Assembly (NCBI RefSeq): GCF_019823105.1
Contig: NZ_CP081958.1
Span: 682,001 to 746,000 of the forward strand
Direction: 5' to 3'
Origin: Halobaculum magnesiiphilum
Lineage (GTDB): Archaea; Halobacteriota; Halobacteria; Halobacteriales; Haloferacaceae
Length of the DNA stretch: 64,000 nucleotides
In this document: in pieces, positions 1 through 37,049 of the stretch
Position numbering within the stretch: position 1 is the stretch's first letter
How the letters are laid out: every line of letters begins with the position of its first letter
Position numbers and translations under genes: made by a program
The notes under the pieces: model-generated
The model's database searches: none
Told to the model about the DNA's origin: nothing
The model's input: the letters and a program-made list of their open reading frames with translations, nothing else

Positions 1-1121
1 AGATTTTCAAATCGTTTAATGTGAAAGATGGATATGGGATCGTCCAGTGGCGGAAACAGGATGGTAATGACTTCGTGTTTATCACCTCAAGGGAATCTCA
101 AGCTGTTGTTAATCGCGCGTTGGAGCTTGGTGTGGAAGAAGTCCATCAAGGGGTGAAAAATAAACAACGAAAAGTCAAGGAGATCGCGTCTCGTCTCGGG
201 TTCGATCTGACGGATACAGTTTATATTGGTGACGATTTGACGGACTTACAGAGTCTGAAAACCGTCGGCACGGCCTGTTCTCCTAAAGATGCGGCTCCAG
301 AAATTAAAAACGAGTGTTCCTACGTCAGCCAGTATAACGGTGGTGACGGAGCTGTTCGGGACATCCTGAATTATTTAGAATCTGTTTCCCAAACGACACT
401 CGGTGTTATCCCCGCTCGATACGGGTCAACACGCCTGCCCGGCAAACCATTAATCAAGCTCGCTGGTAAGCCGATGATTCAGCATGTATACGAGCGTGCG
501 AGAGACGCAACGCTGCTTGATGATCTCATCGTCGCAACAGATGATGAACGCATCGCTGAGGCGGTTGAGGCAGTCGGTGGTACCGCAGTGATGACCGACC
601 CTGACCATCCAACTGGAACGGATCGGGTGGCAGAAGTCGCAGCGAACGTGGAAGCAGACTTTACGATCAACATTCAGGGTGACGAGCCGTTAATCGACCC
701 AGATGTCATAGACGCTATCGTGTTAGCTCTTCGAGAAAGCTCTCCGAAAGTTGCAACCCCGATTTCGACAATCGAAGACAACTCTCTTCTTGATGACGAA
801 AATACCGTAAAGGTGGTAACCGACACCAATGGCAGAGCACTCTACTTTTCACGGGCGAAAATACCGTCTGGTGGAGAAGTAGGTAATACATACAAACACA
901 TTGGCCTATACGGATTCAAGACAGAGTTGTTACTCGATTACGTCAATATGGAGTCGAAGCTAGAATCCGCTGAAGACTTAGAACAACTCCGACTGCTCGA
1001 AAACGGGTACGAGATACAGACTGTAGAGACGGACTACGACCCCAAAGAGGTTAATGTGAAACGTGATATACAAGTAGTAGAAGAAGAAATGCAACGAGAG
1101 CGCACCAATGAAACTCACTAA
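1..1121 (+). CDS. KdsC-KdsB fusion: Kdo-8-P phosphatase / CMP-Kdo synthetase (5' end outside window)
   Basis: Two enzymes in one chain. The frame is open to the first base, so the N-terminus lies upstream; the GTG at 21 sits inside a KdsC-like FNVKDGYG motif and is not the start. Counting from that GTG, residues 1-120 are the C-terminal part of a HAD phosphatase of KdsC type (GDDLTD at 70-75 is the magnesium-binding motif). Residues about 127-366 are a complete CMP-Kdo synthetase (IPARYGSTRLPGKPL at 130-144, QGDEPLI near 218). KdsC removes phosphate from Kdo-8-P and KdsB activates Kdo with CTP, so the fusion joins consecutive steps. The stop overlaps the start of kdsA. Kdo is normally a Gram-negative sugar. 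A related ulosonic acid as the real product is possible. Confidence 0.88.
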   Translation, partial: IFKSFNVKDGYGIVQWRKQDGNDFVFITSRESQAVVNRALELGVEEVHQGVKNKQRKVKEIASRLGFDLTDTVYIGDDLTDLQSLKTVGTACSPKDAAPEIKNECSYVSQYNGGDGAVRDILNYLESVSQTTLGVIPARYGSTRLPGKPLIKLAGKPMIQHVYERARDATLLDDLIVATDDERIAEAVEAVGGTAVMTDPDHPTGTDRVAEVAANVEADFTINIQGDEPLIDPDVIDAIVLALRESSPKVATPISTIEDNSLLDDENTVKVVTDTNGRALYFSRAKIPSGGEVGNTYKHIGLYGFKTELLLDYVNMESKLESAEDLEQLRLLENGYEIQTVETDYDPKEVNVKRDIQVVEEEMQRERTNETH

Positions 1122-1935
1122 TAGTATCTCGGTCTCTAACGAAGACCAATTCTTCCTTATTGCAGGACCGTGTGTGATCGAATCAGAGAAACAAGTGCTG
1201 CAAACAGCACGAGAACTAAAAGAGATTACTAACCGCCACAACATCGAACTAATCTTCAAGAGCTCGTTTGACAAAGCCAACCGCTCGTCGATTAGTTCCT
1301 ACCGGGGCCCCGGGATGGAACGTGGACTCGAAATTCTGCAGCGCGTCAAAGACAAGTATGATCTGCCGGTTATAACTGATTTCCACGCCCCTGAACAGGC
1401 AGAGGCGGTCGCAGACGTGGTTGACGTTCTACAAGTGCCTGCGTTCCTCTCACGACAAACGGATATGCTCACGGCTGCCGGTGAAACGGGGTTACCAATT
1501 AATGTAAAGAAAGGACAGTTTCTCTCAGCAGATGGCATGGACAATGTTGTTAACAAGATTGAATCCACGGGGAACGAACAGGTTATGCTCTGCGAACGCG
1601 GTGCGATGTTCGGATATAATAACCTCGTTGTCGATATGCGGAATTTAGATATCATGAAAGAGCTTGGCAAGCCAGTCGTGTTCGACACAACACACTCGGT
1701 GCAGCGTCCGGGCGCACGCGGTGACTCCAGTGGTGGCGACCGTCAGTTTGCGCCGACGTTAGCGCGGGCTGCACTCGGAGCTGGGGTGGCGGGTATCTTC
1801 GCTGAAGTGCATCCTGATCCGCCGTCAGCTAAATGTGATGCAGCCACACAACTTCCCCTTGATGAATTCGAATCGCTTGTTAAAAAATGGAAAGCGATTG
1901 ATGACACGGTGAAGGATAGTGAGCGACATGACTGA
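1108..1935 (+). CDS. kdsA: 3-deoxy-8-phosphooctulonate synthase (KdsA)
   Basis: Condenses phosphoenolpyruvate with arabinose-5-phosphate to Kdo-8-phosphate. The 275-residue length fits the family. Visible KdsA/DAHP-synthase-superfamily signatures are GPCVIES near residue 20, KSSFDKANR, the RGPGMERGL stretch, KKGQFLS, the CERG segment and DTTHSVQRPG. It overlaps the KdsC-KdsB fusion by 14 bases and the next gene by about 17, so the three genes are translationally coupled. KdsD downstream supplies its arabinose-5-phosphate. The homologous NeuB-type synthases look different, which supports Kdo rather than sialic acid. Confidence 0.9.
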   Translation: MKLTNSISVSNEDQFFLIAGPCVIESEKQVLQTARELKEITNRHNIELIFKSSFDKANRSSISSYRGPGMERGLEILQRVKDKYDLPVITDFHAPEQAEAVADVVDVLQVPAFLSRQTDMLTAAGETGLPINVKKGQFLSADGMDNVVNKIESTGNEQVMLCERGAMFGYNNLVVDMRNLDIMKELGKPVVFDTTHSVQRPGARGDSSGGDRQFAPTLARAALGAGVAGIFAEVHPDPPSAKCDAATQLPLDEFESLVKKWKAIDDTVKDSERHD

Positions 1936-2908
1936 GATGGACAAGACAGACGTTTATGAAGCTGTTTCTCACACGCTGTCGGTTCAAGAGAACTCTATTG
2001 CTACGCTTCAGAATGCGGAGACAATAGCGGAGATAACACAAGTGGCAGAAGTAATTAGCGAGGAGAACGGTCGAGTAATATTCTCTGGTATTGGCAAGTC
2101 TGGAGATGTAGGCAAGAAGGTCTCATCCACGTTCAATAGTATTGGGGTGTCTTCACACTTCCTTCATCCTGTTGAAGCACTTCACGGCGATTTGGGATCT
2201 CTTTCAGCCGAAGACCTTGTTATTCTCATTTCGAATAGCGGAAATACTGACGAGATGGTGGAACTACTGCAATTTATTCGTTCATTTGATGCGACAACTG
2301 TGGCGATCACGTCCGACCCTGAATCGAAGTTAGGTAAACAAGCGGATTATCACGTCAATACGAAAATTGAGAAGGAAGGCGCAGTCGTAGAATTAGTCCC
2401 GATGGCCAGTGCCACTGCTACGATGATTATCGGAGACTGTATCGCAAACGCCTTGATGACGAATCGGGACTTCAGCCAACAGGAGTACGGCCATTTTCAT
2501 CCTGGGGGGGCGATTGGGAAGCGTCTGTTGCTAAACGTTGAGGACTTAATGCACAAGGACATTCCAAAATCTCGGCCGGCAGACACATTAGCCACAGTTG
2601 CTCTGAAAATAAGTGAAGGCGGTAAAGGGATTGCTGCGATTCAGGACGAGGAGAACTATTTGAAAGGTATCTTGACGGATGGTGATATCCGTCGACTGAT
2701 TGAATCTGGAAAGGATCTGCATAATGTCGTAGCCAAAGAAGTAATGATTACTAACCCAATTACGGCTTCCGAAGATATGGCCGCAATAAGAGCTCTAGAA
2801 GTTATTGAAGAGAACGACATTTCACAACTTGTGGTAACTGATGATTCTAACAGGTTTTTAGGTGTCGTACACATCCATGACATTATGGAGAAAGGGCTAA
2901 CAGTTTGA
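1919..2908 (+). CDS. kdsD: Arabinose-5-phosphate isomerase (KdsD/KpsF type)
   Basis: Converts ribulose-5-phosphate to arabinose-5-phosphate, the first committed precursor of Kdo. An N-terminal SIS sugar-isomerase domain (residues about 35-180; GIGKSGDVGKK, SNSGNTDEM) is followed by the EYGHFHPGGAIGKRL signature of the KpsF/GutQ/KdsD family and two CBS domains (about 210-329). GTG at 1919 or ATG at 1928 could start it; both lie inside the end of kdsA. It completes a set of four Kdo activities in three genes. Confidence 0.88.
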   Translation: MSDMTEMDKTDVYEAVSHTLSVQENSIATLQNAETIAEITQVAEVISEENGRVIFSGIGKSGDVGKKVSSTFNSIGVSSHFLHPVEALHGDLGSLSAEDLVILISNSGNTDEMVELLQFIRSFDATTVAITSDPESKLGKQADYHVNTKIEKEGAVVELVPMASATATMIIGDCIANALMTNRDFSQQEYGHFHPGGAIGKRLLLNVEDLMHKDIPKSRPADTLATVALKISEGGKGIAAIQDEENYLKGILTDGDIRRLIESGKDLHNVVAKEVMITNPITASEDMAAIRALEVIEENDISQLVVTDDSNRFLGVVHIHDIMEKGLTV

Positions 2909-3012: not shown

Positions 3013-3951
3013 TCATTTGTATCCGAGAGCAGCCAAGCGTGAGTCTACGTTCATCTGGTCCCCGTGGCGGATGGACGGTTCAGTTACTTCGGGATCGTAG
3101 GTTCGGGTATCAGTTCCGCTCGTCCGTATGAATGGAACCTCTCGAAGACACGACACCGCCAATGGCGGATGACCATAGATTCCTAGACTTCCGAAGGCGT
3201 TCCCGTGGTCGGATGTCACGACTACACTCCCGACGTCAGCATTACTCAGAAGCAACTCTACCTCGTTCATCACGAGCCGGAGGTTCTCCCGGTACGCCGT
3301 CCAAACCTCCTCTCGGCCCACTTCACCCGCCTCAAGGAGACTCCAAACGTTCTGTTCGTCACCCTCTTTGCGGAACGCGTAATCAAGATTGACACCGTCA
3401 GCGAGCTTGTTGTCGATAAACGGATAGTGGGGTTGCATGTAGTGAACAATCAACCTGTCGGGGTTGTTCTCTCGCAACTCAGTTATGGCGCGGTCAGTTA
3501 CTGGTCGTGGTGGTACGATACCGATGTCTTCGTCCCAGTGGGTCTGCCAAAGTTCGTCAAGTAAGTTAAAGCGCGCTGGATCCAGTTCGCTCGAGAACAT
3601 ATTTGCAGTGACATATGTTGTTCGAGAGACTTCGTCCTGGTACTCCGTCGCGAATGTCCGTTCTAGCCATTGCTGTGACTTCGACCCGACCGAGTGAATT
3701 TCGGCGTACTCCTCGGGGAAGTCGTACTCTGGGTATACTTCACGCATCAGGTCTGCCCGGCAAGCGTCGAGGACTAACAAAAGGTCCCAATCGAAATCAT
3801 AGATGTTCGGCCCTCGTTTATACCCTAACTTGTCAAGTCTGCGGAGCGGACCGTTCCGAAATACTTCAACCCCGACGGTTCTGGCAGTCGACCGAACCCC
3901 TTTTTCTCTAAGCTCACAAGCCGTATTTTGCAGAAAGTCGAATACAGACAT
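3013..3951 (-). CDS. Alkaline-phosphatase-superfamily (sulfatase-like) protein
   Basis: 312 residues. Metal-site motifs of the superfamily are visible: DLLLVLDACRADLM near residue 57, MQPHYPF in the middle and VVTSDHGNAFG followed by GHPP. The formylglycine motif CxPxR of true sulfatases is absent, so a phosphotransferase or phosphodiesterase acting on surface glycans is at least as likely. No signal peptide is evident. It is close in length and motif order to the gene at 5835-6782 and ends with the same RLAALGYK-like tail. Convergent with kdsD; about 100 bases separate them. Confidence 0.75.
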   Translation of the reverse strand: MSVFDFLQNTACELREKGVRSTARTVGVEVFRNGPLRRLDKLGYKRGPNIYDFDWDLLLVLDACRADLMREVYPEYDFPEEYAEIHSVGSKSQQWLERTFATEYQDEVSRTTYVTANMFSSELDPARFNLLDELWQTHWDEDIGIVPPRPVTDRAITELRENNPDRLIVHYMQPHYPFIDNKLADGVNLDYAFRKEGDEQNVWSLLEAGEVGREEVWTAYRENLRLVMNEVELLLSNADVGSVVVTSDHGNAFGSLGIYGHPPLAVSCLREVPFIRTSGTDTRTYDPEVTEPSIRHGDQMNVDSRLAALGYK

Positions 3952-4014: not shown

Positions 4015-5730
4015 CTACTGGTTAAGGCTCCTCGCTCGAATCACTTCAGCTATCGCGTCTGCTGCCGACTCCTCTAACAGGAACTGTTCGTGAGCGAACT
4101 CACGCTGTTCCGAGGCTAGTGCAGTAACCGACTTGGGCGTTTGTTCGGAAACAAACTCGGACAACGCCTCATTGGTCTTCAACAAGGGTACTTGAGGGGC
4201 ACGCGCGTATGGTTTATTCTGGATTGCTGGATACCAACTGTTATAACAAACTGTTGGTGTACCGTTGAGCATCGCCTCAAGACCCACGTTGGAGTTAATC
4301 GTCATGAGTAGCGACGCATCTTTAATTTCTCTCCCTAAGTCGTCGCTCGCCATCGTTACGTAGTCACAATCAGCTAGTTGGTCAACTTGTCGTTGATAGA
4401 ATTCCGGGGTTTCGTCGGGGTGAGTCTTTATTTTAATCTCGTCAACTAGATTGCTTTCCATACACGCCTCCAATATGGTCTTCAGGAACTCGCTTCGGAC
4501 ATCATCCTCAAAAGGTTGGGTCGCAATGAGAACAGTGAATGGGGTTGTTTCTTCTAGCTTATTCGGTGTCCCAAGCGAATTAACGTCGTATGCTACCTCA
4601 AAGTACGGCCGTCCGATTTCTAACAGTTCTGGGATATCACCCCCGTCATATATTCGCTTAATGTGATTGACGCCGATCTTACTTGGAACGAAGTATGTCG
4701 TGTCAGATGGTGGAAGGAATTCTGTGCCCGTTACAGTTGAGTGATGGACGTAATATGTATCCACATCCTTACGCTGTGCCGCCTCTAGGATAGCAAAGTC
4801 GCGTGGGTTCGGACCCCCAATCACGGCCGCATTAACATCGGTGTTTTCAAAGTAGTCTACGGCCCAACAGAAATACATGAGCGATCGGATATTTTGTTCA
4901 AAAACTACTCTAGTAGCAGTCTGAACGGTGTTTGGAAGTGCGACGCCGTACTCACGCTTAAACAGCGGTAGGAGGCTAGCGACCATTTCGTCTCTCCCAA
5001 CGGGGTTCACAATCTCTCCAAGGACCCGAAGCTCACGGCGGATGATTCCCAATGTAATGTAATTCTGATACGAACAAACATCAGGCTCATAGTCAAGGTT
5101 TAGGGAGGACCAATAGAACTGCAGACGGAGTCGTGGAATCAGACAGTTTGCATCACCATCAAGAGCCTCTGCAATGGGGAGTGTGCTATCGAACCGGTCC
5201 GGATATGGAAACACAGAGATTGGTCGGCCATTAGGCGAATAATCCTTCGGCAGTACAAGACTTAACAACTGATCAAGAAGGAGGAGGCCAGCCTGTCGAA
5301 ATATACGAGCCGTCTTTTTTGCCCATTCTACGACTTGTTCGACACCTGATTGTTCGTTTTGGCAGCTAAGTTTACAGTCTAGCTGTGTACAAACATCCTT
5401 AGCTACTGCTACGTACACTTCTGGTAACTGACTGTCAACGATTAGTTCGTCTACATTATTTTCAGTAATGTGAGTCATTAACCTCTGCGCTAGCGGAACG
5501 AGATCAAGGAGGGCCCCCTTGTCTGGATACGGCGTCGCCAGATGTGTCCAGATTATCTGGTATAATGGGACCGACCACTCCTCCTCAGGGCGATGTTCGT
5601 ACATTAATCGGAGAACTTCAAAGACGGATTCGTCGTCGACGGCGGCGAGTTCCTCACGCAGTACGAACGTCTCTTTATCCCATCCGTCCGGAGCGTCTCC
5701 TGCGGTCTTCATAAAGAATGACCGCTTCAT
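4015..5730 (-). CDS. Capsule-type GT-B glycosyltransferase, candidate Kdo transferase
   Basis: 571 residues. The C-terminal half resembles the GT-B sugar-nucleotide-binding lobe of capsule export and phosphoglycerol-type transferases: KIKTHPDETPEFY, then a TINSNVGLEAMLNGTPTVCY segment that is typical for the nucleotide contact loop. The N-terminal third has no family I recognise. Its position beside the only CMP-Kdo genes in the window suggests a transferase for Kdo or a similar acid, comparable in role to KpsC/KpsS, but the sequence does not prove donor specificity. It shares a divergent promoter region (5731-5834, AT-rich) with the sulfatase-like gene at 5835. Confidence 0.6.
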   Translation of the reverse strand: MKRSFFMKTAGDAPDGWDKETFVLREELAAVDDESVFEVLRLMYEHRPEEEWSVPLYQIIWTHLATPYPDKGALLDLVPLAQRLMTHITENNVDELIVDSQLPEVYVAVAKDVCTQLDCKLSCQNEQSGVEQVVEWAKKTARIFRQAGLLLLDQLLSLVLPKDYSPNGRPISVFPYPDRFDSTLPIAEALDGDANCLIPRLRLQFYWSSLNLDYEPDVCSYQNYITLGIIRRELRVLGEIVNPVGRDEMVASLLPLFKREYGVALPNTVQTATRVVFEQNIRSLMYFCWAVDYFENTDVNAAVIGGPNPRDFAILEAAQRKDVDTYYVHHSTVTGTEFLPPSDTTYFVPSKIGVNHIKRIYDGGDIPELLEIGRPYFEVAYDVNSLGTPNKLEETTPFTVLIATQPFEDDVRSEFLKTILEACMESNLVDEIKIKTHPDETPEFYQRQVDQLADCDYVTMASDDLGREIKDASLLMTINSNVGLEAMLNGTPTVCYNSWYPAIQNKPYARAPQVPLLKTNEALSEFVSEQTPKSVTALASEQREFAHEQFLLEESAADAIAEVIRARSLNQ

Positions 5731-5834: not shown

Positions 5835-6782
5835 GTGTCTGCCATACGAAGTTTGTGTAACAACTGGTATCGGCCGAGATGGTGGTATCGCTCGGGACTC
5901 CCGTTCCTGATGAAACAGTACTACTCGAACCGGCCGAATCGTGGAAGCCGGATTATGGATGAGGACTGGGACAATCTGCTAATCCTTGATGCCTGTCGTT
6001 ATGACCTCTTCGAAACTGCGAACGCCTCTTTCGAGTTGGCCTCGAGGGCATCACTTGAGTCAAGACGCTCACGTGGGTCGAACACACCCGAGTTTGTTTC
6101 GGAGAATTTCGATGATGGCCCCTATCTGGATACCGTATACATCACAGCGAATCCGCAGGTGAACCTGAATACTGACGCAGAATTCTTCGATCTAGTCAAC
6201 GTTTGGGAGGATAGCTGGGATGACAATCTGGAAACTGTCCCACCGGAGCCGGTTACTACCGCGGCACGGGCCACCGCTAAGCGCGCACCGGAGAAACGTC
6301 TTATTGTTCACTACAATCAGCCGCATTACCCGTTCATCGGTGAGACAGGGCAGGAAATTGCGACCCATGCGGGCATGGAATACACGCGACGCGTTCTAGA
6401 AGGGGAGGCACCGGAGCGTGATCACGACACGGTTTGGGAACAGCTCAAGGATGGCACTGCATCGGTCGACAAGGTATGGGAGGCATACTACGAGAACCTC
6501 GTTCTAGTCCTCGACGAAGCGTTGACGTTGGTCGACGAGTTGCCCGGGCGTACTGTCATCACTTCCGACCATGGTAATCTGCTCGGTGAATTCGCTTGGC
6601 CGTTTCCCATTCGGCTATATGGCCACCCTGGACACATCCATACGAAACACTTGGTCTCAGTTCCGTGGTTGATTTTCGAGAGTGATGAGCGCAAAACAAT
6701 AACCGCCGGGGACGAGGGCGTCAAGGGAAGGACCAGCAAAACTGACGTCTCGGACAGACTGGAAGCGCTCGGGTATATGTGA
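5835..6782 (+). CDS. Alkaline-phosphatase-superfamily (sulfatase-like) protein
   Basis: 315 residues from a GTG start; the next good internal ATG is at about 5910. Paralogue of 3013-3951: LLILDACRYDLF, a SNTPEFV segment at the position of the nucleophile region, YNQPHYPFIG, VITSDHGNLLG and GHPGH. The C-terminus DRLEALGYM carries the tail shared by all five superfamily members here. No CxPxR sulfatase motif, so sulfate need not be the substrate. Probably modifies the glycan made by the neighbouring transferases. Confidence 0.75.
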   Translation: MSAIRSLCNNWYRPRWWYRSGLPFLMKQYYSNRPNRGSRIMDEDWDNLLILDACRYDLFETANASFELASRASLESRRSRGSNTPEFVSENFDDGPYLDTVYITANPQVNLNTDAEFFDLVNVWEDSWDDNLETVPPEPVTTAARATAKRAPEKRLIVHYNQPHYPFIGETGQEIATHAGMEYTRRVLEGEAPERDHDTVWEQLKDGTASVDKVWEAYYENLVLVLDEALTLVDELPGRTVITSDHGNLLGEFAWPFPIRLYGHPGHIHTKHLVSVPWLIFESDERKTITAGDEGVKGRTSKTDVSDRLEALGYM

Positions 6783-6819: not shown

Positions 6820-7569
6820 TCACCGAATCACCGACTTGAGATCATCAATAGTCCGAAGATCCGTCTTGAAGAACTCCTCATTATCGGTGATTCGTTCGGG
6901 CTCCCACTCCCACCAAGCCGTTTCTAGCAGCTGTTCTCGCATCTCCTCGTCGAAACGATACGATTTTGGCTCAGCAGGCACACCAGCCACGACAGCGTAC
7001 GGGTCAACGTCATTCGTAATGACCGATTTCGCCCCGACAACGGCACCGGGACCAATCTGGACGTCCGAGAGAACGGTGACGTCCGCACCAAACCAGACGT
7101 CAGACCCGATTTCGATCGGACCCTTAGACGTATGCGGGAGCTCTTGCCCGAGAAAATTATCGTAGAATCTCATCTGCATTCCGGGTCTTGAAGTGACGTG
7201 ATCTTCAGCTTGGAATGTCGCTCGACGTGCAATAGCACAGTACCGGCCTATGTCTACCGATCCGACCGCCTCGACTTCACGAACGAGGTTTGTCCAACGC
7301 CCCACGTCTATGTCTCCGTCTAGACGACTCTCCGGGCCTACTCGGGCCGACTCATGGACTGTTACGTCGCCTCTCAATCGTGAACCTTGACACACAGTCG
7401 CTTCCGATTTAAGCTGTGCATTTCCCTCAATTGACGTTCTGTATCCTATCTTTGCCCCCGGTGCCGACGAGATTGATGTATTGGCAGGTGATCTATTGAT
7501 TATATACCGAAACATAGTCGGGTATCCAAGCAACCCGATCAGCTTGGATAGATGATTTTTCACATTCAT
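6820..7569 (-). CDS. Left-handed beta-helix (hexapeptide) acyltransferase
   Basis: 249 residues. Imperfect hexapeptide repeats occupy residues about 30-205 (VGPESRLDGDIDVG, IGSDVWFGADVTVLSDVQIG, VVGAKSVITNDV). The C-terminal AGVPAEPKSYRF and WWEWEPE segments are typical of CatB/antibiotic-acetyltransferase-like enzymes that acetylate sugars. The acyl donor would be acetyl-CoA or similar; the acceptor is probably a sugar in the surrounding glycan locus. Convergent with the gene before it, leaving about 37 bases between stops. Confidence 0.8.
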   Translation of the reverse strand: MNVKNHLSKLIGLLGYPTMFRYIINRSPANTSISSAPGAKIGYRTSIEGNAQLKSEATVCQGSRLRGDVTVHESARVGPESRLDGDIDVGRWTNLVREVEAVGSVDIGRYCAIARRATFQAEDHVTSRPGMQMRFYDNFLGQELPHTSKGPIEIGSDVWFGADVTVLSDVQIGPGAVVGAKSVITNDVDPYAVVAGVPAEPKSYRFDEEMREQLLETAWWEWEPERITDNEEFFKTDLRTIDDLKSVIR

Positions 7570-9537: not shown

Positions 9538-10587
9538 GTGACTGACGCCCCTCTGGTTTCTGTTGTCATACCTACGTATGACCGGCCAGACAGAGTCGGT
9601 GACGCTGTCAGCAATATTAGAGAGCAAACCTACCGACCGATTGAGACAATCATCGTTGACGACTGTTCGCCGACACCGGTATCCGACGTAATCAAAGATG
9701 AATTCGGGTCACATCACGGAGTGACGATTATCCGCCACGACGAGAATCAGGGCGCGAACGCGGCGAGAAACTCTGGAATCAAACAAGCGAACGGTGAATA
9801 CGTAGCGTTTCTCGACGACGATGATCGTTGGTTTCCGTCGAAACTCAGGCGGCAGGTCGATACACTCGAGTCGGCCGAGGCTGATACTGCAATCGCGTAC
9901 ACAGGGAAAGTCTACGTCAATGATGAAGGGCTCATCCAGAACGTTTCGACGCATTGTGTATCCGAGAAGCCCACGAAGCAGCTGTTAAAGACGAACCTCG
10001 TTGGTTCCTTCTCTACCCTGCTAGTTCATCGAGATGTCTTTGACGACGTAGGGGTGCTTGACGAAGCGTTCCCCTGCTGGCAGGATACTGACTTCCTCGT
10101 CAGAGCGACCCAGACGTACGACCTCGCATGTGTCCCCGAACCCCTGACGGTACGGGTGTACCACGGTGATCAGATAACCGGGGACTTCGACGCGCGGACT
10201 GAGACCGCGCTTCCGCTGTTCCTCGAAAAGCACAGTGATTTGGCTAATGAGTACGGCGATGGGTTCGAACGACAAATGCGGTCGCGGCTGTTTTTCAATG
10301 TCGGTTGGAATGGGGTCGTTAATGGCCATACTCTAGCAGCGTTCCCCTACATTCTACGAGCTATTAGGACCGATCCGGCTTGGATGCGGCCGTACGCGGC
10401 ACTACTTGCGTGCATCGGCGGCGACCCGGTAAGACGCCTGCTGAGCGCTCTCAACAATTTCCGGTCTGATGACGATCCACGGGTCGGTGACACGATTATC
10501 GATACGGACGGTGAGCTTTCGATCCAGTCGCCGAAAGCGGCCGAAAAGTGGGAAGAGACGTTACCGGAGGCGGTTGTCGTCCAATGA
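9538..10587 (+). CDS. Family 2 glycosyltransferase
   Basis: 349 residues from GTG. Starts with VSVVIPTYDRPDRVGDAV and contains a FLDDDDRW metal/nucleotide motif near residue 87, the hallmarks of a GT-A fold family 2 enzyme. A CWQDTDFLVR segment near 180 matches the acceptor-side ED-type motif. The last codon overlaps the next glycosyltransferase by an ATGA, so the two are coupled. Cytoplasmic, likely adding one sugar to the lipid-linked glycan; sugar not predictable. Confidence 0.87.
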   Translation: MTDAPLVSVVIPTYDRPDRVGDAVSNIREQTYRPIETIIVDDCSPTPVSDVIKDEFGSHHGVTIIRHDENQGANAARNSGIKQANGEYVAFLDDDDRWFPSKLRRQVDTLESAEADTAIAYTGKVYVNDEGLIQNVSTHCVSEKPTKQLLKTNLVGSFSTLLVHRDVFDDVGVLDEAFPCWQDTDFLVRATQTYDLACVPEPLTVRVYHGDQITGDFDARTETALPLFLEKHSDLANEYGDGFERQMRSRLFFNVGWNGVVNGHTLAAFPYILRAIRTDPAWMRPYAALLACIGGDPVRRLLSALNNFRSDDDPRVGDTIIDTDGELSIQSPKAAEKWEETLPEAVVVQ

Positions 10588-11687
10588 CAGTCGACATCGG
10601 GTTTTTTCTCCCGTCGTTCGACATCGGGGGCGCGGAACGGGTCACAATAAATTTAGCGAACGGGTTCGCCAATCGCGGCTACAGCGTGGACCTCGTTCTC
10701 CCCAGTCCTCAAGGGCTGCTCCGTACAGAGGTTGACCCGCGGGTTCGCGTTGTCGACCTTCAGTCATTACCGTTTCCGGGTTACACCCGGCTCGGGGACA
10801 TTCCATTCCTAATGAGGTATCTCCGTCGGACGACCCCTACTTGGTTCTACACCGCTATGAATCACATCAATGTTCCTAACCTAATTGCGTGGAACCTAGC
10901 TCGCGTGCCGACCCAAATTATCGTGACGGAACACATCGACCCTAGAGTTGCCGTAGTGAATTCCACTAAAAACAGATTCGTCTACGCAGCGGCTAAAGAA
11001 CTCTACTCGACAGCAGGCAAGTTGGTCGCTGTTTCGGACGGCGTTGTTGAGGGACTCAGCGATATTGTCGGTGTAGATCGCGACGCAATCACTCGAATCT
11101 ACAATCCCATCGTTTCCGAGACTCTCCGGGAACGAAGTATGGAACCGCTCAACCACAAATGGTTTTCGTCAGATGATTACAAAGTTGTACTCGGTATTGG
11201 CCGTCTCTCAGAACAGAAGCAATTCTCAGATCTGGTGGAGGCTGTGTCACTGCTCGCGGACGAGTCAGTTCGCCTGGTGCTCATAGGTGACGGCCCAAAA
11301 CGTGATGAACTGGCGTCGCGTATCGCCGAACTCGGATTATCGTCGTCGAGTGAACTGCTCGGGTACGTCGACAACCCGTATCAATATATGCGGAACGCGT
11401 CAGTGACGGCCCTTCCGTCTATCAGGGAAGGGTTTGGAAACGTCCTCGTTGAGGCGATGGCTTGTGGTTGTCCCGTTGTTGCAACGGACTGTCCAAGTGG
11501 CCCGGCGGAGATCTTGGACAACGGTGAGTACGGTCGTCTCGTATCCGTCGGTAATCCGTCTGCGCTGGCAGCCGCTATCGGTGAGACCCTTGAGGAACCG
11601 GTTGATGAGGACAAATTGATAACCCGGGCGTCGGATTTCAGTATCAAAGCTGCAGTGGATCAGTACGAGCGTCTACTTTGGGGGTGA
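10584..11687 (+). CDS. Family 4 GT-B glycosyltransferase
   Basis: 367 residues if started at the ATG at 10584, which overlaps the previous stop; the longer frame from 10548 would run into the upstream gene. Opens with FFLPSFDIGGAERV (N-lobe glycine loop) and carries the EX7E-like segment SIREGFGNVLVEAMACGCPV near residue 290, typical of retaining GT4 enzymes. Followed after 4 bases by the membrane protein, forming a three-gene operon. Confidence 0.87.
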   Translation: MTVDIGFFLPSFDIGGAERVTINLANGFANRGYSVDLVLPSPQGLLRTEVDPRVRVVDLQSLPFPGYTRLGDIPFLMRYLRRTTPTWFYTAMNHINVPNLIAWNLARVPTQIIVTEHIDPRVAVVNSTKNRFVYAAAKELYSTAGKLVAVSDGVVEGLSDIVGVDRDAITRIYNPIVSETLRERSMEPLNHKWFSSDDYKVVLGIGRLSEQKQFSDLVEAVSLLADESVRLVLIGDGPKRDELASRIAELGLSSSSELLGYVDNPYQYMRNASVTALPSIREGFGNVLVEAMACGCPVVATDCPSGPAEILDNGEYGRLVSVGNPSALAAAIGETLEEPVDEDKLITRASDFSIKAAVDQYERLLWG

Positions 11688-26396: not shown

Positions 26397-26816
26397 TCAC
26401 CACGTCATCCCTTCATACGTCAGTCCCTCCCGACGCTCGATCACGCGACGACCGTCGACCACCACGGGCTCCGCCATCGCGTCGAACTTCGAATCGAGCG
26501 CGGCGAACTCGTTCCAGTCGGTGACGACAGCGGCACCATCAGCGCCGGCGAGCGCATCCGCACCGGAATCAGCATACTCCATGTCGGGGAAGTGCTCGCG
26601 CATGTTCTCGGTCGCGACGGGGTCATACGCGACGACGGTCGCCCCCCCAGCTGCAACGATTCGATCACGGGGGTAGCCCTGGAGTTGCGAACGTCGTCGG
26701 TCCCCGGCTTGAACGCCAAGCCCAACACCGCGATCCGAGCCCCATCCAACTCCACCGCCGCCGCCAACAACTCGACGAGCCGCTCGGGCTGGCGATCGTA
26801 CACCTTCACGCCGGCC
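26397..26816 (-). pseudogene. UDP-sugar dehydrogenase C-terminal fragment, frameshifted
   Basis: Reading on the minus strand, [39 protein letters not shown] lie in one frame and [23 protein letters not shown] to GLTYEGMTW in another. These join at a run of seven C at 26642-26648. Together they equal the last 130 or so residues of a UDP-glucose/UDP-ManNAc 6-dehydrogenase. The NAD-binding N-terminal part is missing; homology stops near 26810, where a fragment of another sugar-nucleotide gene begins on the other strand. Confidence 0.7.
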
Positions 26817-27020
26817 ATCTTCCACGCGTGCCACCTCGTCCAGCCCAGCGACCGCGGCGAGTACGAGATCAGCGACGCGGTCGGCCTCCTGCTGGAGAGC
26901 GGCCGGACGATCGACGCGATCCCGCTGGACGGCTGGCGGCTGGACATCGGCTACCCCGAGGACCGCGACGAGGCCGAGCGTCGCCTGAGCGACGAGGTGG
27001 AGCCGGAAGCCGAGGCCTGA
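26817..27020 (+). pseudogene. Sugar-nucleotidyltransferase C-terminal fragment
   Basis: [53 protein letters not shown] resembles the C-terminal end of glucose-1-phosphate thymidylyl/uridylyltransferases (RfbA/AglF type). There is no N-terminal GxGTRL part. The fragment is head-to-head with the UDP-sugar dehydrogenase fragment, so a rearrangement has joined two broken glycan genes. Confidence 0.6.
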
Positions 27021-27327
27021 GCGGTCACACGGCGGCGACACGGGACGGAGAGACCGCACGAGCGACCACAAGTTGACGAAACCCCGAACCGACGCGATGG
27101 CCGTCGACCTTGCAGGAACTCTCTCGCGTGCCCTCGTTGTCGACTGTCCGCCTACCGAGCTCTCAGACTGAAGGCCTCCACTGGGTACCGCGTCGGTGAC
27201 GACAATCTCGCCGCTCACTGAGAGGCCTCAATGGATCTTTCGGCTAATTCACTGGAGGATGTCCAACGTGTAACTAGTTATTAGGAATACATCGGTGAAT
27301 CGCCGGTCCTCGTGCTGTCCGCTGAGG
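27021..27327. other. Intergenic, no gene seen
   Basis: 307 bases between the nucleotidyltransferase fragment and the next small gene. No open frame with haloarchaeal character, no tRNA or strong repeat noticed. Confidence 0.4.
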
Positions 27328-32315: not shown

Positions 32316-33728
32316 TCAACTACCCCACCCTACTTCGCTCACCCTGACGGGTTCGCTCGTTGAGGGTGGGGCTTGTCCGTGAACTCGGCGTCGAACCCTT
32401 TCGGGTGGGCGGTGAATCCGCCACTCGGCGTCACTGTTCCAGACTTCAGGGCGAGCTGACTGTCGCCCGTCCGCCGAGACGACTGTTGGCCCCGGCGGAC
32501 ATACCGCATACCGATGTTCTTTGCCGCGTTGTAGTCCGCGTTCGCTTCCGACTCGCACTTCACACACCGGAAGTCGTTGCGGGTCGGGCGATTCTCGTCT
32601 GCCGTGAAGCCACACTCGGCGCACCGATTCGACGTGTACGCCGACCCGACTTGCTTCACCGAGATACCTTCCGCTTCGGCTTTATACTCCACTTGCTCGT
32701 ACAGCGTTCGGAACGCCCACTTGTGACCCCACGACGCACCTGTGCGGTCGCGGATGTGGGTTAGGTTTTCGAAGACTATCACGTCACACTCGTATCGGAG
32801 TGCTTCATCCACGATCGCGTTCGACGCTCGGTGAAGTACGTCGCGGACGTAGCGAAGTTCCCGGCCACTCGACTGTTCGAGCGTCCGGTGGGCGCTTCGC
32901 GTCCCGCTCTGTTGGAGTCCGGCGCGTACTTTCTCGAACTCGCGGAGGTCGTGAGCCAACTCCCGCCCGCTGAAGAAGAAGGCGGTGCTGGTGACAGCGA
33001 GGTTTTCGATACCGAGGTCAACCCCGAGGACCGTTCCGTCCTCGGCGGTGTTCCGCTCCGTATCGTTCTTGTACCGGCGGAAACCGATATGCAAGAGGTA
33101 GTCGCCGTCACGGGCGGTGAGCGTGCTTTCTGTGACGCTCCACTCGTCGGAGTCGAGGTACTGTCGCTGGTAGCCATCGTCGGCGTCGGGGAGGGCAAGC
33201 GGACACCGGACGCGACTCTCCGTGGTGGAGAGCGACACCGTATCATCATCGAACAGCGTCATGGTCCGGGTGTCGTACTTCACCGTGGGTGCGGTGAAGG
33301 TGGGCTTACTCACCTTCTTGCCCTTCGCCTTCCGTTCGATACAGCTGGTGATGGCTTGTGCGGCTTGGTGGGTGGCGAGAATCGCGTGCTGACTCCCGAG
33401 GTCGGTGTGTTCGCGCACGTCGTCGTAGGCGAGGGGCTGTACGTCGCTTTTGGTGTTGCACGTGCCCCACGCCATGTCCGTGGCGAGTTGGCAACCACGC
33501 TTCCACTCGGAGATCGTCTCTTCGAGGAGGTCGCGTTGCTCGTCCGTTATCTCAAGGCGAGTGATTGCCGTCCGACGCACGTAGTCGTCTGCCACGTATT
33601 CAATGTGGTCGCTGGGCTACTTATACGTTGGTGGGTGCAACCAATACGAACGCGCTCCTCCCCTCCCTACTCGCTCCCTTTGGTCGCTCCTTGAGGAAGG
33701 GGACTCCGCGCTACCGCTTCAGTTGAAT
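32316..33728 (-). mobile_element. IS1341-type TnpB element, copy A
   Basis: From GTCAACTACCCC on the 3' side to CGCTACCGCTTCAGTTGAAT on the 5' side, with tnpB only and no TnpA. Both ends are matched by copy B. A CCCCACCCT ... AGGGTGGGG hairpin at 32323-32367 marks the right end and overlaps the tnpB stop, where TnpB guide RNAs (omega RNA, sotRNA) arise. It sits exactly between a regulator and its nucleotidyltransferase. Boundaries are good to within a few bases. Confidence 0.75.
32339..33595 (-). CDS. tnpB: TnpB RNA-guided nuclease, copy A
   Basis: 418 residues. RuvC-like active site appears complete: D193 in LGVDLGIENLA, E276 in VIVFENL, D354 in ANADYNAAKNIG. Zinc ribbon Cys at about 325, 328, 344 and 347. 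The C-terminal tail after residue 360 overlaps the presumed guide-RNA region. TnpB is a DNA nuclease guided by an RNA from the 3' end of its own element; it favours element retention. Near-identical to copy B. Confidence 0.85.
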   Translation of the reverse strand: MADDYVRRTAITRLEITDEQRDLLEETISEWKRGCQLATDMAWGTCNTKSDVQPLAYDDVREHTDLGSQHAILATHQAAQAITSCIERKAKGKKVSKPTFTAPTVKYDTRTMTLFDDDTVSLSTTESRVRCPLALPDADDGYQRQYLDSDEWSVTESTLTARDGDYLLHIGFRRYKNDTERNTAEDGTVLGVDLGIENLAVTSTAFFFSGRELAHDLREFEKVRAGLQQSGTRSAHRTLEQSSGRELRYVRDVLHRASNAIVDEALRYECDVIVFENLTHIRDRTGASWGHKWAFRTLYEQVEYKAEAEGISVKQVGSAYTSNRCAECGFTADENRPTRNDFRCVKCESEANADYNAAKNIGMRYVRRGQQSSRRTGDSQLALKSGTVTPSGGFTAHPKGFDAEFTDKPHPQRANPSG

Positions 33729-35171: not shown

Positions 35172-35705
35172 ATGACTGACCGTGGACTCGACTCGTGGAC
35201 TGACGACCTCACTGCACGAGAGCGTGTACGAGAGATCGTGACCACGATCACCGAACCGCGGTCTGTCGAATGGGTCCGTGAAGAAGCGCAGGTGTCGTCG
35301 TGGCAAACTGCGAAAGACGAGCTGGAGATGCTGGTCGACTTCGGGCAAGTACAGGCTGTTGGAGGCGACGACGGAAACAGGAAGTACGCGCCGAACTACC
35401 AACGTCGCTACTTCGACGAGGTGGCCGAGTTGATCAACACGCACACGCGAGCAGAACTTCGTGATGAGATCGCCTCCATTCATGCAGACATCGACGAGTG
35501 GAAGGGCCGATTCGATGTCGAATCCTGGGATGAATTAGAAGCGACGCTCACTGATGACGCCCTCGACAGTGAGAGAATTCGAGAGCGCAACCGCATACTA
35601 CGCCAGTGGGAACGATACGAGGACAACAAGCGTCTCCTCAAACATGCGCGTCAACTACCCCACCCTAAACGCCTTCGGCGTTTTGAGGGAGGGGCTTGTC
35701 CATGA
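35172..35705 (+). pseudogene. Winged-helix protein (DUF7342-like), interrupted by TnpB copy B
   Basis: From ATG 35172: helix-turn-helix SVEWVREEAQVSSWQTAKDELEML and a helical tail to KRLLKHAR, after which the frame enters the transposon end and stops (PHPKRLRRFEGGACP). On the far side of the element, 37050-37146, the sequence VFDRRIDDLVDILDVVTWEDG reads as the missing C-terminus. So a complete gene of about 190 codons was split by insertion. Confidence 0.68.
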
Positions 35706-37049
35706 ACTCGGCGTCGAACCCTTTCGGGTGGGCGGTGAATCCGCCACTCGGCGTCACTGTTCCAGACTTCAGGGCGAGCTGACTGTCGCCCGTCCGCCGA
35801 GACGACTGTTGACCTCGACGGACATACCGCATCCCGATGTTCTTTGCTGCGTTGTAGTCCGCGTTCGCCTCTGACTCGCACTTCACGCAACGGAAGTCAG
35901 TACGAGTCAGGCGGTTTTCGTCTGCAGTGAACCCGCATTCGGCGCACCGCTTCGACGTGTACGCCGAACCCACTTGCTTCACCGAGATGCCATCTGCCTC
36001 GGCTTTGTACTCTACTTGCTCGTACAGCGTTCGGAACGCCCATTTGTGCCCCCACGACGCGCCTGTCCGGTCGCGGATGTCGGTCAAGTCCTCGAACGCG
36101 ATCACGTCACACTCGTATCGGAGTGCTTCATCCACGATCGCGTTCGACGCTCGGTGGAGTACGTCGCGGACGTATCGAAGCGCACGTCCACTCGACTGTT
36201 CGAGTGTTCGGTGGGCGCTCCGAGTGCCGGTCTGTTGAAGTCCTGCACGCACGTTCTCGAACTCGCGGAGGGTATGAGAGAGTTCGCGTCCATTGATGAA
36301 TCGGGCGGTGCTAGTGACGGCGAGGTTTTCGATACCGAGGTCAACCCCGAGAACCGTTCCGTCCTCGGCGGTGTTTCGCTCGGTGTCGGTCTTGGGTCGG
36401 CGAAACCCCATATGCAGGAAGTAGTCACCGTCGCGAGTTGTGAGCGTGCTTTCTGTTGGCTCCCACTCGTCGGAGTCGAGATACTGCCGTTGGTAGCCGT
36501 CGTCGGCATCGGGAAGGGCAAGCCGACACCGGATGCGACTCTCCGTTGTGGAGAGGGACACCGTATCGTCGTCAAATAGTGTCATTGTCCGGGTGTCGTA
36601 CTTCACCGTAGGCGCTGTGAAGGTCGGCTTGCTCACGTTCTTGCCGTTGGAGCGGCGTTCGAGACAGCCGGTGATGGCTTGGGCGGCTTGGTGGGTGGCG
36701 AGAATCGCGTGCTGACTCCCGAGGTCGGTCTGGTCGCGCACGTCGTCGTAGGCGAGAGGCTGTACGTCGCTTTTCGCGTTACACTTGCCCCACGCCATGT
36801 CCGTGGCGAGTTGGCAACCACGCTTCCACTCGGAGATGGTTTCCTCAAGCAACGTTCGTTGCCTGCCGTTTACCGAGAGGCGGGTGATTGCCGTCCGACG
36901 CACGTAGTCGTCTGCCACAATTCAATGTATGTACGTACCTACTTATAGAATAGTGTCTGTACTCGATACGAACGCGCTCCCCCCCTCCCTACTCACTCGC
37001 TCCGCTCGCTCCTTGAGGAAGGGGACTCCGCGCTACCGCTTCAGTTGAA
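35650..37049 (-). mobile_element. IS1341-type TnpB element, copy B
   Basis: Same ends as copy A: TCAACTACCCCACC at the right end and CGCTACCGCTTCAGTTGAAT at the left. A CCCCACCCT-containing hairpin at 35656-35697 overlaps the tnpB stop. tnpB only. It lies inside a winged-helix gene. Few changes from copy A suggest a recent common source. Confidence 0.75.
35665..36918 (-). CDS. tnpB: TnpB RNA-guided nuclease, copy B
   Basis: 417 residues. Active-site context intact: LGVDLGIENLA, VIAFEDL, ANADYNAAKNIG, and the four-Cys zinc ribbon (CAECGF ... CVKCES). Roughly nine in ten residues equal those of copy A; differences cluster at the extreme N-terminus and the extreme C-terminus. Confidence 0.85.
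   Translation of the reverse strand: MADDYVRRTAITRLSVNGRQRTLLEETISEWKRGCQLATDMAWGKCNAKSDVQPLAYDDVRDQTDLGSQHAILATHQAAQAITGCLERRSNGKNVSKPTFTAPTVKYDTRTMTLFDDDTVSLSTTESRIRCRLALPDADDGYQRQYLDSDEWEPTESTLTTRDGDYFLHMGFRRPKTDTERNTAEDGTVLGVDLGIENLAVTSTARFINGRELSHTLREFENVRAGLQQTGTRSAHRTLEQSSGRALRYVRDVLHRASNAIVDEALRYECDVIAFEDLTDIRDRTGASWGHKWAFRTLYEQVEYKAEADGISVKQVGSAYTSKRCAECGFTADENRLTRTDFRCVKCESEANADYNAAKNIGMRYVRRGQQSSRRTGDSQLALKSGTVTPSGGFTAHPKGFDAEFMDKPLPQNAEGV

Follow-up and report, generated by a model that had tools for sequence, protein, structure and literature searches.

What would a haloarchaeon do with 3-deoxy-D-manno-oct-2-ulosonic acid (Kdo), a sugar that is usually taken as a signature of Gram-negative envelopes (and of plant pectin)? 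The question is raised by a stretch of 64 000 nucleotides from Halobaculum magnesiiphilum (G000:C1:682001-746000; the window in what follows), a haloarchaeon with a genome of 3.73 Mb in four contigs. At the 5' end of the window lies a cassette of three genes, all on the plus strand, which encode a fusion of KdsC and KdsB, followed by KdsA and KdsD. We consider it likely that this operon makes Kdo activated with cytidine monophosphate (CMP-Kdo) and that a neighbouring enzyme of the KpsC/WbbB type transfers Kdo with retention to an exported surface glycan. In this haloarchaeon, Kdo is probably a surface decoration that involves no synthesis of lipopolysaccharide (LPS).

The initial annotation had assigned four Kdo activities to three overlapping genes, and a hidden Markov model check bore this out: each activity scored above the bit-score cut-off of a curated NCBIfam model. 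The fusion (397 residues; 3-1121, open at the window edge, with the KdsC domain reaching to about 383 and the KdsB domain spanning about 390-1100) is a KdsC-type phosphatase over residues 3-151 (TIGR01670, 135 bits against a cut-off of 107) and KdsB over residues 156-391 (NF003952, 285 against 193; TIGR00466, 183 against 155; the equivalog NF003948, at 218 against 281, stays below its cut-off). It overlaps by 14 bases with the gene for KdsA, the 3-deoxy-8-phosphooctulonate (Kdo-8-P) synthase (1108-1935), which exceeds the equivalog cut-offs (TIGR01362, 399 against 314; NF003543, 412 against 242). This gene in turn overlaps by 17 bases with that for KdsD (1919-2908), an arabinose-5-phosphate isomerase of the KpsF/GutQ family with a SIS domain and two CBS domains (TIGR00393, 271 against 204). 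The matches are far beyond chance, and the nearest solved structures of the respective proteins are Kdo-8-P synthases, CMP-Kdo synthetases, Kdo-8-P phosphatases and arabinose-5-phosphate isomerases.

Since the 5' part of the first gene lay outside the earlier reading, the fusion could have been a frame or assembly artefact at the window edge, or the region bacterial contamination. With the upstream sequence added, the frame reaches an ATG at L004:13928, 73 bases before the window, and runs through as one intact frame of 397 residues with no stop or frameshift; this rules out an artefact and upholds the fusion. Contamination is ruled out by the context, a 2.97-Mb haloarchaeal chromosome, by the acidic proteins and by four other haloarchaea that carry this fusion with 65-81% identity (on contigs of more than 2.8 Mb in three cases and on one contig of 2.1 Mb in the fourth). 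We give both explanations practically no credence. In the same upstream sequence a TATA-like CTTATTTA ends about 25 bases 5' of the ATG of the fusion, and from this spacing we infer a leaderless transcript of the haloarchaeal kind.

Among the 391 haloarchaeal genomes surveyed, six from five genera encode KdsA. The gene order KdsC/B-KdsA-KdsD is common to all six and the fusion lies in a single frame in five of them; the copy in G253 is split between the ends of contigs C29 and C37. In the tree, all six KdsA proteins fall into one clade (support 100/100), in which the protein from the window is closest to that of G253, from a different family, and not to that of its congener G296. This placement points to transfer among haloarchaea. 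KdsA and KdsB are more acidic on average than their bacterial homologues, and the genes therefore look resident in haloarchaea despite the low-G+C island in which they lie; the first 16 kb of the window have 48-53% G+C (mostly 53-67% beyond), as for an acquired glycan island.

Outside this group, KdsA was also found in three other Halobacteriota (G469, G563 and G613), where it is placed apart from the haloarchaeal clade and there is no KdsC-KdsB fusion. The set of four activities is complete in G563 and G469, where KdsA, KdsB, KdsC and KdsD are clustered but KdsC is not fused to KdsB, and where KdsA is placed with bacterial lineages; G613 has only KdsA, KdsD and a weak KdsB-like protein. The sister group or bacterial donor of the haloarchaeal clade was not resolved by the KdsA and KdsB trees. 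G469 also encodes another unusual archaeal kds fusion, a protein of 348 residues (L150:10340-11386) in which a KdsC domain precedes a segment that matches the CBS region of KdsD.

The fusion had been described as unusual in the initial annotation. This holds in so far as it is absent from the other Halobacteriota with kds genes; it is not, though, the sole fusion of these two domains, as Betaproteobacteria have them in the reverse order, KdsB-KdsC. The betaproteobacterial proteins (Rhodocyclales, L064; Herbaspirillum, L077) likewise join both domains in one protein inside a kds operon, with identities to the haloarchaeal domains of about 47-51% for KdsB and 34% for KdsC, and the reverse domain order makes an independent fusion event likely. 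The kdsB-kdsA-kdsD-kdsC operons of Bacillota and Thermodesulfobacteriota encode the same four activities and are similarly compact, often without gaps between genes, but kdsC and kdsB are separate there, whereas the haloarchaeal order is CB-A-D. We found no bacterial protein with the KdsC-KdsB order among the best 80 of 570 related stretches, nor among the top plasmid matches listed, as far as the joined pieces show; its absence elsewhere is not proven.

The active sites bear on whether the product is Kdo itself. KdsA carries the KANRSS motif, which is of the arabinose-5-phosphate type, and the Cys/His/Glu/Asp set of the metal-type enzymes (the Cys within IAGPC) in all six haloarchaeal copies. 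The KdsC domain has the HAD motifs DVDGVLTD, ITSR and GDD (type C0), and KdsD retains the equivalents of K59, E111, E152 and H193 (Escherichia coli numbering), which we take to be the four catalytic residues. In KdsB, the R, T, R and K of the cytidine triphosphate (CTP) loop and D95, whose roles have been described (PMC3149649), are retained wherever a haloarchaeal copy covers the site, as are the sugar-side residues R, H, Y, E and Q.

Several observations weigh against a plain Kdo pathway. The E. coli-type KdsC equivalog model is missed (NF007019, 122 against 208 bits; a KDN-9-P phosphatase model is likewise below its cut-off, 108 against 180), as is the KdsD equivalog cut-off (263 against 505). 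Together with a KdsD segment, KEGAVVELVPMAS, that differs from the bacterial KEACPLGLAPTSS, and a metal ligand and shortened loop in KdsB that are unlike those of bacterial KdsB, the missed KdsC and KdsD cut-offs would suit a close relative of Kdo as product, such as 8-amino-Kdo, a hydroxylated form or another 2-ulosonate. KdsA, however, is well above its equivalog cut-offs and keeps the arabinose-5-phosphate motif, and all of the sugar-side residues of KdsB are kept, unlike those of an orphan clade of haloarchaeal KdsB-like proteins. There is also no aminotransferase among the neighbours examined, although the genomes were not searched for KdnA/KdnB. The conserved Kdo-type residues of KdsA and KdsB make a different ulosonic acid less likely, and we regard a Kdo relative as an improbable product.

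The metal site of KdsB is the main biochemical uncertainty of the pathway. The Mg-A ligand D219 of Aquifex KdsB has been described as strictly conserved (PMC3149649). At this second Mg-A ligand all six haloarchaeal copies have Asn, compared with Asp in 80 of 82 bacterial sequences, a further point against the pathway; activity is therefore not assured. If the domain were inactive, the cassette would yield free Kdo only or the protein would be a relic. We think this very doubtful: all of the other KdsB active-site residues examined are kept, the protein is conserved across genera, and Asn at this position is shared with one other archaeon's stand-alone KdsB and with one sequence from the Synergistaceae. 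Our claim is that the domain would work like KdsB, with an altered metal site.

The orphan KdsB-like proteins just mentioned form a separate clade of stand-alone proteins in haloarchaea that lack KdsA (L139:5915-6670 in G030, L140:9163-9999 in G376, L141:9929-10711 in G154, L143:9495-10259 in G217, L144:9471-10232 in G207 and L123:6730-7476 in G275; also in G326). The six that were aligned keep the metal ligands and differ on the Kdo side (H to Q, Y to I/M/L, E to D and Q to M). Their genes mostly adjoin genes for a GT2 glycosyltransferase and a 2-hydroxyacid dehydrogenase, some with a short-chain dehydrogenase/reductase. This clade may activate an undescribed acid sugar.

Where would activated Kdo go? 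Transfer to lipid A by WaaA, the LPS route, was rejected: in the six Kdo genomes there was no match to LpxC and none above the cut-off to WaaA. The initial annotation had proposed a surface polymer as the destination; we still infer rather than observe this, with support from the failure to detect LpxC and WaaA, from an ABC exporter next to the cassette and from a transferase-like neighbour with diagnostic motifs. The neighbour, encoded on the minus strand at 4015-5730, matches Capsule_synth (PF05159; 24.4 bits against a cut-off of 20). When a profile of 31 haloarchaeal relatives was searched against the whole PDB with E values up to 1, it matched only KpsC (E of about 1e-10) and WbbB (about 1e-4); the entries 5fa0 and 8csb, annotated as '(putative) N-acetyl glucosaminyl transferase', are presumably WbbB. 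Two motifs, Q405PFED409 (4504-4518) and K435THP438 (4417-4428), are invariant in the five-member subfamily to which the protein belongs, and in the subfamily alignment Q405xxxD409 falls on QTFND160 of KpsC. D160 of KpsC forms a covalent adduct with Kdo (PMC10148158), and K435xHP fits (K/R)XHP, the motif with which Kdo transferases and sialyltransferases bind CMP (PMC12887879). KpsC (GT107), WbbB (GT99) and KrkA (GT140) have QXXXD and (K/R)XHP in the same C-terminal Rossmann region; they differ from the window protein in having very low identity to it and another N-terminal half, and it has a single module whereas KpsC is dual. A single-sequence AlphaFold model of the protein was too poor for use (predicted local distance difference test score of 38.6).

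The genomic distribution of PF05159 is consistent with a role in CMP-sugar transfer. In 27 of the 32 haloarchaeal genomes that have it, the gene lies within 20 kb of one for a CMP-sugar synthetase (median 5.9 kb), and it is present in four of the six KdsA genomes compared with 32 of 391 overall (P = 5e-4). As aligned and read by eye, the nucleophile position is QXXXD in six of the seven PF05159 proteins whose genomes encode a KdsB-type synthetase; none of the 24 others has this motif there, and most of them have NXXXD, HXXXD, QXXXE or HXXXE instead. A single divergent subfamily accounts for five of the six, which are hence not independent events, so that relatedness inflates the count. A loose scan for QXXXD gave chance matches in five non-KdsB proteins, and the count is limited to motifs at the aligned strand end. 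The protein at 4015-5730 is a probable retaining beta-Kdo transferase of the KpsC/WbbB type. The Capsule_synth proteins encoded near NeuA-, PseF- or KdsB-type cytidylyltransferases in haloarchaea (for example L111-L138) more broadly suggest a family of archaeal CMP-ulosonate transferases.

Other results count against this assignment. The profile of the protein's own five-member subfamily matches KpsC weakly (E = 0.006), folds of the KpsC type can also use pseudaminic acid (PMC12887879), and the co-location of PF05159 genes with synthetases could partly reflect shared residence in glycan islands. The PF05159 protein of G253 has NXXXD in place of QXXXD, and no PF05159 protein was found in the Kdo genomes G007 and G017. 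In these two genomes, PF01973 (MptE-like) proteins are encoded close to the kds operon (G007, L094:13868-15722; G017, L095:5564-6493; only one of three is above the Pfam cut-off). PF01973 also covers the MAF-type nonulosonate transferases. The cassette might accordingly make CMP-Kdo that another enzyme uses, for example one of the MAF/DUF115 type as in G007 and G017, while the PF05159 protein transfers a different sugar. The two genomes without PF05159 and the missing Gln in G253 speak for this arrangement; the restriction of the PDB profile matches to beta-Kdo transferases and, with its bias from subfamily relatedness, the by-eye partition of QXXXD speak against it. We judge it unlikely, though less so than a Kdo relative as product. 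Directly 3' of KdsD in both G007 and G017 there is a gene that resembles PF04230 pyruvyltransferases.

On the reading that we favour, the pathway would run as follows. The three-gene operon, a horizontally mobile unit on this reading, would make CMP-Kdo inside the haloarchaeon. KdsD would convert ribulose 5-phosphate to arabinose 5-phosphate; condensation of the latter with phosphoenolpyruvate by KdsA would give Kdo-8-P. In the fusion, the N-terminal KdsC domain would dephosphorylate Kdo-8-P to Kdo and the C-terminal KdsB domain would convert Kdo with CTP to CMP-Kdo, so that an irreversible step might feed activation within one polypeptide; by such channelling, an unstable activated sugar could be made directly after phosphate removal. 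The enzyme at 4015-5730, if specific for Kdo, would then form a covalent intermediate between Kdo and Asp409 and transfer Kdo, giving a retained linkage, to the acceptor, a surface glycan predicted to be lipid-linked or protein-linked. This glycan would be built by the surrounding glycosyltransferases and probably exported to the cell surface by the upstream ABC exporter.

The nearest archaeal precedent is the legionaminic acid of Halorubrum sp. PV6 (PMC6137143), likewise a CMP-activated 2-ulosonic acid of a haloarchaeon, found in surface N-glycans. That pathway makes a nine-carbon sugar by NeuB/NeuA-type enzymes, and Kdo is not mentioned in the paper. In the open-access literature (subscription journals were outside the search) we found no paper on archaeal Kdo or on a KdsC-KdsB fusion, nor one on BFO_1060. 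The individual enzymes are already known; what is new is the combination of an archaeal host, a KdsC-first fusion, an altered KdsB metal site and a linked KpsC-like transferase. We lean towards the general proposition that some haloarchaea display Kdo in surface glycans, that these are built by retaining beta-Kdo transferases of a dedicated archaeal branch, and that a Kdo-8-P phosphatase/CMP-Kdo synthetase, bifunctional and modified at its metal site, supplies the transferases. If this is true, Kdo is neither an LPS marker nor limited to bacteria and plants, and archaea have a CMP-ulosonate transferase family of their own. A complete and apparently intact pathway in archaea without LPS machinery would alter the interpretation of Kdo genes from metagenomes. 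Archaeal glycobiology would gain a second class of acidic 2-ulosonate beside the nonulosonic acids, and the transferases would offer an archaeal branch of the unusual double-displacement beta-Kdo transferases.

The cassette lies in a wider glycan island. Immediately upstream, in divergent orientation, lies the gene for the ABC exporter, which is of the MsbA/P-glycoprotein kind; relatives of this exporter adjoin the kds operon in G017 and G027, and there is an ABC exporter at this place in G253. Around the cassette are genes for a UDP-glucose dehydrogenase, several glycosyltransferases, an acetyltransferase and sulfatase-like proteins. Those of the island include a hexapeptide-repeat acetyltransferase (6820-7569, minus strand), a GT2-type glycosyltransferase (9538-10587, plus strand) and a GT4-type glycosyltransferase (10548-11687, plus strand). 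The proteins at 3013-3951 (minus strand) and 5835-6782 are related to one another and have no Pfam or NCBIfam match; by eye they resemble the alkaline-phosphatase/sulfatase superfamily, and relatives are encoded near the kds operon in G253, G296 and G027 and also in the G017 stretch. Further along, 26397-27218 is apparently a degraded second UDP-glucose dehydrogenase, the C-terminal part of which resembles L004:9300-10604 by eye, and two very similar proteins on the minus strand (32339-33595 and 35665-36918) resemble TnpB of the IS200/IS605 type, again by eye.

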